This document shows, one piece after another, positions 222-2,180 of a DNA stretch of 17,992 bases; position 1 is the stretch's first letter, and each line of letters opens with the position of its first letter. The translations under genes and the position numbers were made by a program. Below the pieces are notes generated by a model that was given only the letters and a program-made list of their open reading frames with translations, did no database searches and had not been told where the DNA came from. The DNA comes from Oscillospiraceae bacterium (GTDB lineage: Bacteria > Bacillota_A > Clostridia > Oscillospirales > Oscillospiraceae). The stretch lies in NCBI GenBank assembly GCA_017537045.1, contig JAFYLN010000134.1, forward strand, positions 1-17,992, given 5' to 3'.

Positions 222-2180
222 TTATTTCACAAAAGCATTTAGCTGCTGCACAGATTCCTTGGCATCACCCAGCATCAGCAGCACATTCTCTGCTTCATAC
301 AGGGGATTCGGTACACCGGCATAGCCGGGCTTGGTATCAAAGTTGCAGAACACTGCCATAGGCGCCTTCTCCACATCCAGCACCGGCATTCCGTAGATGG
401 GTGTACCCTCTGCGGTGTTGGCTGCAGGATTGGTTACGTCATTGGCACCGATGACAACAGCGATATCACAGGAAGCAAAGTCATCATTGATATCTTCCAT
501 CATGTACAACTTGTCATAGTCGATATCCGCTTCACATAGCAGCACGCTCATATGACCGGGCATACGGCCTGCCACGGGATGGATCGCAAATTTCACCTCT
601 GCGCCACGTCTTTCCAGTGCAGCGGCAAATTCCGCCACATCGGCCTGTGCCTGAGAAAGTGCCATGCCGTAACCGGGAACGATGATGACTTTCTGCGCTG
701 TTTGCAGGATAGCTCCAACGCCCTCTACAGTCAGTTTTGTATCTGCTGTGCTTTCCTGCGGCTGTACAGGCACTTCTGCTGTTCCCTCAACATAGGAAAG
801 GAGCTTTTGTACCGATTCCTTGGCATCACCCAGCATCAACAGCACATTCTCTGCTTCATACAGGGGATTCGGTACACCGGCATAGCCGGGATTGATATCA
901 AAGTTGCAGAACACTGCCATAGGAGCCTTCTCTACATCCAGCACCGGCATTCCGTAGATGGGTGTACCCTCTGCGGTGTTGGCTGTGGGATTGGTTACGT
1001 CATTGGCACCGATGACAACAGCGATATCACAGGAAGCAAAGTCATCATTGATGTCTTCCATCATGTACAGCTTGTCATAGTCGATATCTGCTTCACACAA
1101 CAGCACGCTCATATGACCGGGCATACGGCCTGCCACGGGATGGATCGCAAATTTCACCTCTGCGCCACGTCTTTCCAGTGCAGCGGCAAATTCCGCCACA
1201 TCGGCCTGTGCCTGAGAAAGTGCCATACCGTAACCGGGGACAATGATGACCTTTTCTGCATTTCGAAGAGTTCCTGCTACAGATGCTCCTCCGAGTTTTT
1301 CGGGCTCTTCCGGCATTTCGGGTTCTTCGGGAATCTCTGCCGCAGGCGTATTCTTCACTGCAGGTGCCGCTGCCGTGGTCTTACCGGTGAGGATAGTGAC
1401 TAGCTTGCGGTTCATAGCCTTGCACATATCCTGCGTCAGAATCAGACCGGAGGCGCCTACAATGCCGCCAATGGCAACCAGCAACGGTTCGTTGATGGCC
1501 ATGCCTGCAATACCGCCAGCTACGCCGGACAGGGCATTCAACAATGAAATGGTAATGGGCATATCGGCACCGCCGACCCGCATTACAAACACAACGCCGA
1601 TTACCAGCGACAGAGCCGTGACCGGGATTGCCCACACACCGCTGTGGAATATCTGCAGCAGGATACCTGCTACACACAGCACAGCCAATGCGGCCATAAT
1701 CATGCTGTGGTTGGGCAGGCTTTTGGGTCTGGCATCCAGAATTCTTGCCAGCTTTCCCGCTGCGATCAGACTGCCAGTGAAGGTCAATGCACCGATTGCC
1801 AGTGCAAGACCCGCAGTGAACCCCTCAAACAAGGGAACGTTTCCGTTGACCGCTGTGACCGCAGCCACCAGTGAAGAAGCTGCGCCGCCAAGGCCGTTCA
1901 AAAGGGCAATGATCTGAGGCATAGCGATCATTTTTGTAGTTAGTGCACCATAGATACCAACTGCAGTGCCCACAGCAAGCGCAAGAATTAACGCGATAAT
2001 TGCAGCACTTCCTGCAGCAACCACGCGAGTACAGTAAAGCAGGCCAATTGCTATGGCCATAGCCGTAGCGGAGAGGGCATTACCGGCAACCGCACTTTTT
2101 ACCTTGCTCATCATATTAACGCCCAGAAGTACCGCAACGGTGCAGATGCCACAGAGAAGGTAGTAGAAAGCATTACTCAT
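222..2180 (-). CDS. pntB: NAD(P) transhydrogenase beta subunit with duplicated NADP-binding domain
   Basis: This is the beta subunit of the proton-translocating transhydrogenase, an integral membrane protein that exchanges hydride between NAD(H) and NADP(H). It has 652 residues, against about 460 in E. coli PntB. Residues 1 to about 265 are a series of hydrophobic helices (membrane domain dII). A Pro/Glu-rich linker follows at about 270-300, then the NADP-binding dIII at about 302-465, a short linker, and a second dIII at about 490-652. Both dIII copies show GYGMA, VAGRMPGHM, VIGANDVTNP, YGMPVLDVEKAP and GYAGVPNPLY. The KRS triplet that holds the NADP 2'-phosphate in E. coli PntB is absent in both; that stretch reads VFCNFD. 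The start overlaps the end of the small membrane subunit gene by 8 bp, which suggests translational coupling. The family call is secure; the function of the extra domain is unknown. Confidence 0.95.
   Translation of the reverse strand: MSNAFYYLLCGICTVAVLLGVNMMSKVKSAVAGNALSATAMAIAIGLLYCTRVVAAGSAAIIALILALAVGTAVGIYGALTTKMIAMPQIIALLNGLGGAASSLVAAVTAVNGNVPLFEGFTAGLALAIGALTFTGSLIAAGKLARILDARPKSLPNHSMIMAALAVLCVAGILLQIFHSGVWAIPVTALSLVIGVVFVMRVGGADMPITISLLNALSGVAGGIAGMAINEPLLVAIGGIVGASGLILTQDMCKAMNRKLVTILTGKTTAAAPAVKNTPAAEIPEEPEMPEEPEKLGGASVAGTLRNAEKVIIVPGYGMALSQAQADVAEFAAALERRGAEVKFAIHPVAGRMPGHMSVLLCEADIDYDKLYMMEDINDDFASCDIAVVIGANDVTNPTANTAEGTPIYGMPVLDVEKAPMAVFCNFDINPGYAGVPNPLYEAENVLLMLGDAKESVQKLLSYVEGTAEVPVQPQESTADTKLTVEGVGAILQTAQKVIIVPGYGMALSQAQADVAEFAAALERRGAEVKFAIHPVAGRMPGHMSVLLCEADIDYDKLYMMEDINDDFASCDIAVVIGANDVTNPAANTAEGTPIYGMPVLDVEKAPMAVFCNFDTKPGYAGVPNPLYEAENVLLMLGDAKESVQQLNAFVK
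253..1251. repeat. Tandem 438-bp duplication within pntB (dIII domain)
   Basis: Positions 253-690 and 814-1251 align without gaps at an offset of 561 bp (187 codons, so in frame). I count 15 mismatches in 438 positions, about 96.6% identity. Twelve are synonymous. Three change residues: T/A in the ANDVTNP(T/A)AN segment, and IN/TK just before PGYAG. The 123 bp between the copies encode a linker and the start of the second domain. The divergence is small but clearly not zero, so this is not a simple read-duplication artefact. Confidence 0.95.

Follow-up and report, generated by a model that had tools for sequence, protein, structure and literature searches.

The question raised by this locus is why a transhydrogenase beta subunit should carry two copies of its domain III (dIII). 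Models of the enzyme rest on one dIII per protomer, which alternates between domains I and II (dI and dII) and is taken as the NADP site; in the part of PMC5742237 available to us, the three-domain architecture is described as universally conserved, with two domain III copies per dimer. The stretch analysed here (the window) is 17,992 nt of contig JAFYLN010000134.1 from an Oscillospiraceae bacterium (assembly GCA_017537045.1), and on its minus strand it encodes a PntB-like protein in which two dIII follow one dII. We give an even chance to the reading that this PntB belongs, as beta subunit, to an "ND-type" subfamily, distinct among proton-translocating transhydrogenases, which would have several swinging arms per channel, would hold NAD(H) and probably bears a wrong reaction name. 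The reading is based on the three-gene layout, the kept dII channel residues, the two dIII on flexible linkers and the replacement of the NADP motif. The two dIII of the window belong to a recurrent variation from one to four copies, in which the copies evolve in concert and purifying selection is mostly strong.

Each dIII would act as a swinging arm ferrying dinucleotide between the mouth of the dII channel and the hydride-transfer site of dI, and several arms would share one channel, one exchanging nucleotide or waiting while another is docked. In tandem lipoyl or acyl-carrier domains, several carriers likewise work with a single active site. A turnover advantage of several arms is plausible. 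From the residue changes described below, the arms would hold NAD(H) and not NADP(H), in which case "NAD(P) transhydrogenase", the name used in databases, probably misstates the reaction.

Tandem dIII in the window and in related proteins

The pntB-like gene and its parts are as follows (aa, amino acids; pLDDT, predicted local distance difference test score).

222..2180, minus strand: pntB-like gene, 652 aa, dII (nine transmembrane helices) plus two tandem dIII, from a single open frame, Pfam and the predicted model
1383..2180, minus strand: dII membrane domain, aa 1-266, with N95, D206 and N215 kept
1290..1382, minus strand: linker 1, aa 267-297, pLDDT <50 at 268-294 in the predicted model
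783..1289, minus strand: dIII copy 1, aa 298-466
729..782, minus strand: linker 2 separating the dIII copies, aa 467-484, pLDDT <50 at 467-482 in the predicted model
225..728, minus strand: dIII copy 2, aa 485-652, main helix and strand order as in copy 1, from the dIII scan and the predicted model
814..1251, minus strand: repeat core of copy 1, from DNA repeat comparison
253..690, minus strand: repeat core of copy 2, 96.3% DNA identity to copy 1 at an offset of 561 nt
897..905, minus strand: N-F-D replacing K-R-S in dIII copy 1, aa 426-428
336..344, minus strand: N-F-D replacing K-R-S in dIII copy 2, aa 613-615

The initial annotation, made from the DNA letters, had proposed an in-frame duplication of the whole dIII at an offset of 187 codons. 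This was borne out by the direct repeat 241-540/802-1101, whose spacing of 561 nt is 187 codons in frame, and by PF02233, which matched the protein in two stretches (738 bits, cut-off 31.7); the dIII scan placed the matches at aa 303-463 and 492-648. The NCBI equivalog model NF006974 scored 516 bits, under its cut-off of 689. Through comparison of the cores over 146 codons, 15 codons were found to differ, 12 synonymously and three not. The count of 15 differences with 12 synonymous thus stands for codons, but 16 bases differ, since codon 361/548 differs at two of them, and the identity is 96.3% and not the 96.6% given before. With the NG86 method (13 synonymous and three nonsynonymous changes), the synonymous and nonsynonymous rates were dS 0.140 and dN 0.009, giving a dN/dS of 0.06. 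A degenerate second dIII was ruled out by this ratio, and the earlier suggestion that both copies are under selection is supported: both are intact and under purifying selection. The similarity of the copies ends at the linkers, which differ from each other in sequence, and the dII channel residues are conserved.

In the predicted model, copy 1 aligned with solved dIII and both copies had the same main elements. The structural matches listed for copy 2 were sirtuins and thiamine diphosphate (ThDP) enzymes; what dIII has in common with sirtuins and the central domains of ThDP enzymes is the fold alone, presumably the DHS-like NAD/FAD-binding fold, and no deacylase or ThDP site was indicated. 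Compared with the Thermus thermophilus-type PntAA-PntAB-PntB (4o9u/4o93), the window has likewise three genes, a dI with the RQD loop, the dII fold and channel residues, and the dIII fold with most of its nucleotide site; unlike it, the window has two dIII with N-F-D instead of one per protomer with K-R-G, and its dI carries residues of L-alanine dehydrogenase (AlaDH). The window linker is also longer, with 27 low-confidence residues against the 14-19 residues given in the available part of PMC5742237.

The initial annotation had contrasted the duplication with known transhydrogenases, which have one dIII per beta subunit, and had proposed a search of homologues for repeated dIII. A PntB protein search gave 7997 scored matches, and among the best 120 (window protein included) 76 had four copies, 41 had three and three had two, so that all 120 had two to four copies; the duplication is not peculiar to this locus, and two to four copies are common in the clade. 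Exactly two copies were also found in P0041 (92% identical, 6 contigs) and P0115 (89%, 5 contigs). The best-scoring three-copy relatives are about 80% identical to the window protein, and a third copy may therefore have been lost or collapsed in the window contig. A second search, with a single-dIII relative as query, led to a set of 239 proteins, some of them partial, which is a non-random sample because the queries were ND-type; one copy was found in 4, two in 107, three in 51 and four in 77. Source names among these relatives included Porphyromonas, Treponema sp. OMZ 799 and OMZ 792, Desulfovibrio sp. and Clostridia, and the six listed Porphyromonas-named clusters (P0008, P0045, P0068, P0069, P0070 and P0093) have four copies each. 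In the part of PMC5378342 available to us, the Porphyromonas gingivalis transhydrogenase genes, called by their usual name, are listed as upregulated in biofilm, and repeats are unmentioned. No paper on tandem dIII or the N-x-D type was among those listed in searches of open full-text literature, a scope outside which most subscription papers lie.

That the window duplication is an assembly artefact is extremely improbable. Repeats break assemblies, and many tandem-dIII genes do stop at contig ends; against this, tandem dIII stand on contigs of 2.3-4.3 Mb, 652-aa relatives occur on other contigs, and the two window copies differ at 16 bases. The large contigs are those of G993 (3,695,371 bases, four copies; its dI has the same sequence as a protein recorded under Alkalicella caledoniensis), G084 (4,308,696, two) and G986 (2,309,262, two). 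A single dIII in close relatives would have spoken for mis-assembly; P0041 and P0115 have two. For the tandem-dIII phenomenon as a whole, an artefact was ruled out by the large contigs and the relatives on separate contigs.

Replacement of the NADP motif

In dIII the KRS motif holds the NADP 2'-phosphate, and in dinucleotide sites the loss of Lys/Arg together with the gain of an acidic residue favours NAD(H). According to the available part of PMC9529548, the motif is K424-R425-S426, and specificity for NADP over NAD is set by loops that include D and E. No K-R-S/G was found in the window dIII, and both copies have N-F-D in its place. The 239 proteins gave 674 readable motifs: 669 were N-x-D, four N-x-N and one N-x-V, and none had KR.

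When 523 distinct dIII sequences were sorted by this motif, 483 were ND-type, 37 KR-type and three unassigned; N424 and K424 are at 100% in their classes by construction, and the dII tree described below is the independent support. Outside the defining positions, the ND class has A401 (97%) and E402 (97%, against 8% in KR) in loop D, T404 (99% against 29%) and C423 (96%; mostly I or L in KR). The remaining nucleotide-site residues are common to both classes, with G314-Y315-G316, H345-A348, R350, G353-M355, D392, G430 and G433 at 97-100% in each. No newly invariant Lys/Arg was found in the ND dIII; at position 428, 79% have K, and window copy 1 has N. Because the KRS motif is replaced by N-x-D plus Glu402, the label "NADP-binding" given to these domains by the initial annotation is doubtful, and the ND-type dIII are better predicted to bind NAD(H).

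The complex might still be a transhydrogenase of the ordinary NADP(H) kind that has additional dIII, as the initial annotation saw it, recognising the 2'-phosphate in some other way and gaining turnover from the additional arms. The NAD Asp of dI, the RQD loop and the remaining strongly conserved residues of dIII and dII are all kept, and the useful reaction known for this architecture runs from NADH to NADP+. With K and R missing from every readable motif, N, D and a loop-D Glu in their stead, and no new invariant basic residue, we consider this unlikely.

Copy number and descent of the ND-type loci

Sweeps with PF02233 or the window dIII covered 200, 394, 201 and 398 genomes, some of them shared, and were centred on Oscillospiraceae and Ligilactobacillus genomes (Bacillota). 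We compiled 96 loci; the table of complete genes omits 17 cut or fragmentary loci, and also outside it are Lactobacillaceae matches without a locus in G641 and G668 (473-aa frames) and matches under the cut-off. All 42 complete KR-type loci had a single dIII. The 37 complete ND-type loci comprised 17 single, 12 double, five triple and three quadruple; five of these 20 tandem loci (G001-G005) were first recruited via the window protein and G002 was the centre of three sweeps, and without the five the tandem share is 15/32. The absence of tandem dIII from the KR type (0/42) holds for sweeps round two Bacillota genomes, no aimed search of a large protein database having been made. More than four complete copies were not seen in the loci examined; an open frame at a contig end (L112) holds five mostly partial pieces, and G833 has a stray dIII piece at another contig end, beyond the counted gene.

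Some loci showed irregular genes. In L121 (G845) a third dIII lies downstream of a two-dIII pntB, separated by a stop codon, and is apparently a decaying copy. The pntB region of L115 (G820), on a 1.59 Mb contig, has several stop codons and is apparently a pseudogene. The sole ND-type pntB of the Lactobacillaceae sweep, in Ligilactobacillus ceti DSM 22408 (L006, L007), is multi-dIII and split across two contig ends; the other 32 over-cut-off matches of that sweep are single-dIII frames, 30 of which read as KR-type.

A tree of dII, which was not used in the class definition, was built from 87 representatives (68 ND and 19 KR). The split between the classes had a support of 1.0, and all 19 KR representatives were single-dIII, so tandem dIII was found only in one dII clade of this sequence tree. 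As the ND and KR counts are not phylogenetically independent, the difference between them amounts to one split. The duplication, which the initial annotation wished to see mapped on a tree, falls within the ND clade together with the other tandem copies, and at least 16 copy-number changes are needed there under unordered parsimony. The window, L001 and L002, with two copies each, were placed among three-copy relatives.

In the 53 tandem proteins, 116 of the 133 copies were closest to a copy of their own protein, a pattern of concerted evolution or homogenisation, as the initial annotation had suspected. dN/dS was measured in 13 of 18 tandem loci, L003, L096, L121, L122 and L123 being left out. 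In G993, copies 1-3 have about 99% DNA identity and copy 4 about 94%, with dN/dS of 0.01-0.02 for copy 4. For the copy pairs of L118 and L119, dS is saturated or lies near or above 1; every copy is nevertheless intact, and dN/dS is 0.05-0.07 where measurable.

These data bear on a neutral amplification, in which unequal crossing-over and conversion change the number of copies without benefit, and the copies stay intact because damage to one harms the subunit. The many copy-number changes within the ND part of the tree, the near-identical copies, the common single-dIII members and the apparently decayed third copy of G845 would all fit. The same recombination is, however, presumably open to the KR genes, in which no tandem was seen; the older arrays L118 and L119 are intact at low ratios, and the Porphyromonas-named clusters are all four-copy. 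We regard neutral amplification as quite improbable.

The dI subunit, the reaction and the neighbouring genes

On the minus strand the transcription order is pntA (2473-3630), pntAb (2173-2469) and pntB (222-2180). The genes preceding pntB are:

2173..2469, minus strand: pntAb-like gene, 98 aa, LHTPLMS present, from PF12769
2473..3630, minus strand: pntA-like dI gene, 385 aa, RQD loop R130, Q135 and D138, with R15, K75, H102 (= H96) and D298 (= D270)
3700..4215, minus strand: Lrp/AsnC-family regulator, directly upstream of pntA, from matches under equivalog cut-offs
4418..5581, minus strand: alanine racemase, next upstream, from TIGR00492 (375.7 bits, cut-off 168)

No swap of dI specificity to NADP was seen: the NAD-ribose Asp D205 is present in 47/47 ND rows and likewise in the 120 relatives that were listed. 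The window dI also has R15, K75, H96 and D270, which are named as catalytic residues of AlaDH in the literature. K75, H96 and D270 stand in all 47 ND rows, beside the transhydrogenase RQD loop, and K75 and H96 in 0/39 rows of the KR-type dI; the R. rubrum dI has K73 and the aligned His without K75. The likeness to AlaDH (2vhw, 1pjb; TIGR00518) includes the fold and the residues R15, K75, H96, D270, M133, Q271 and N301. Unlike AlaDH, the window dI has the RQD loop where AlaDH residues ~117-135 stand (Y117, T119, P128 and P132 were each found in 0/47 ND rows), shares its operon with the genes for a proton channel and for dIII, and scores 188 bits with TIGR00518, under the cut-off of 391.85.

These residues admit another reading of the ND-type complex, as a proton-coupled amino-acid dehydrogenase, most likely for alanine, in which dI would pass hydride from the substrate to its NAD(H) and on to the NAD(H) of the dIII arm while dII couples protons. 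As dehydrogenase residues are retained in dI, an amino/keto-acid couple could supply the redox partner missing from an NAD:NAD enzyme. The potential of the alanine/pyruvate couple lies about 0.2 V above that of NAD, which makes the oxidation of alanine by NAD+ uphill; the proton-motive force could drive it, or the reverse reaction could build that force. The neighbours are a weak argument for it: pntA has an Lrp/AsnC regulator upstream of it here and in four of 22 other ND genomes viewed (upstream is out of view in some, e.g. G001 and G913), and a racemase lies beside the window operon. Among the 25 loci compared, however, the racemase stands beside the pnt operon in the window only and is absent from the gene clusters recurring in at least three of them (window included), so it was rejected as a conserved neighbour. 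The missing residues 117, 119, 128 and 132 would make the pocket a hybrid, TIGR00518 is far under its cut-off, and the residues that are kept may be an ancestral remnant or have a role in NAD binding. AlaDH over the cut-off is missing in 21 of 25 ND genomes (ND genome G084 is just under it) and in four of seven KR genomes, genome completeness not being given; since KR genomes also lack it, there is no clear complementarity. The dI model is moreover weak, with pLDDT <50 at 134-136, 138-140 and 325-329, which are positions close to N324 and the RQD loop. We judge the dehydrogenase reading unlikely. Slightly less probable again is its general form, by which widespread annotated transhydrogenases of anaerobes would be proton-coupled amino-acid dehydrogenases with an AlaDH pocket and one to four NAD(H)-carrying dIII arms gating the proton channel.

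For the multi-arm, NAD(H)-holding ND-type subfamily, several points weigh on the other side. The ND dI keeps D205; with NAD(H) at dI and dIII alike, no net hydride transfer would result, and it follows that either dIII still binds NADP by a new mode or a further redox partner takes part. The single dIII of 17/37 complete ND loci means that extra arms are not required, and the ND/KR difference is one evolutionary split. Neutral unequal crossing-over would also leave near-identical copies, and the third dIII of G845, cut off by a stop, means that copies can decay. The highest dN/dS among the measured loci was 0.40 (the G084 pair, 31 changes), and the PntB model is of moderate confidence (pLDDT 75; predicted template modelling score, pTM, 0.53).

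With one, two, three and four dIII occurring naturally on the same channel, the swinging-arm model can be put to a direct test. If the ND clade, without the NADP motif and with the AlaDH residues, is as proposed, metabolic models of many anaerobes misassign the reaction of this complex. If the dehydrogenase reading were true, pyruvate plus ammonium could serve as an energy-conserving electron sink, or proton-motive force could drive alanine oxidation.

The neighbours vary among the pnt loci, as judged by eye from sequence starts. In L145 and L146 (G934, G959) a gene that looks like a nicotinamidase by eye lies directly upstream of pntA, a possible link to NAD salvage. Elsewhere in the window, a 177-nt dispersed repeat family was found at 8326-8502, 10591-10767 and 15324-15500, with 67% and 84% identity to the reference copy; its arms are partly self-complementary at 15356-15468, and it is possibly a small non-coding mobile repeat. 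A 160-aa piece of metallo-beta-lactamase fold (17362-17844) adjoins a 137-aa piece of citrate transporter (16820-17233) on the same strand, and both pieces in 16820-17844 cover only part of their Pfam profile, indicating a possible deletion or chimeric join.
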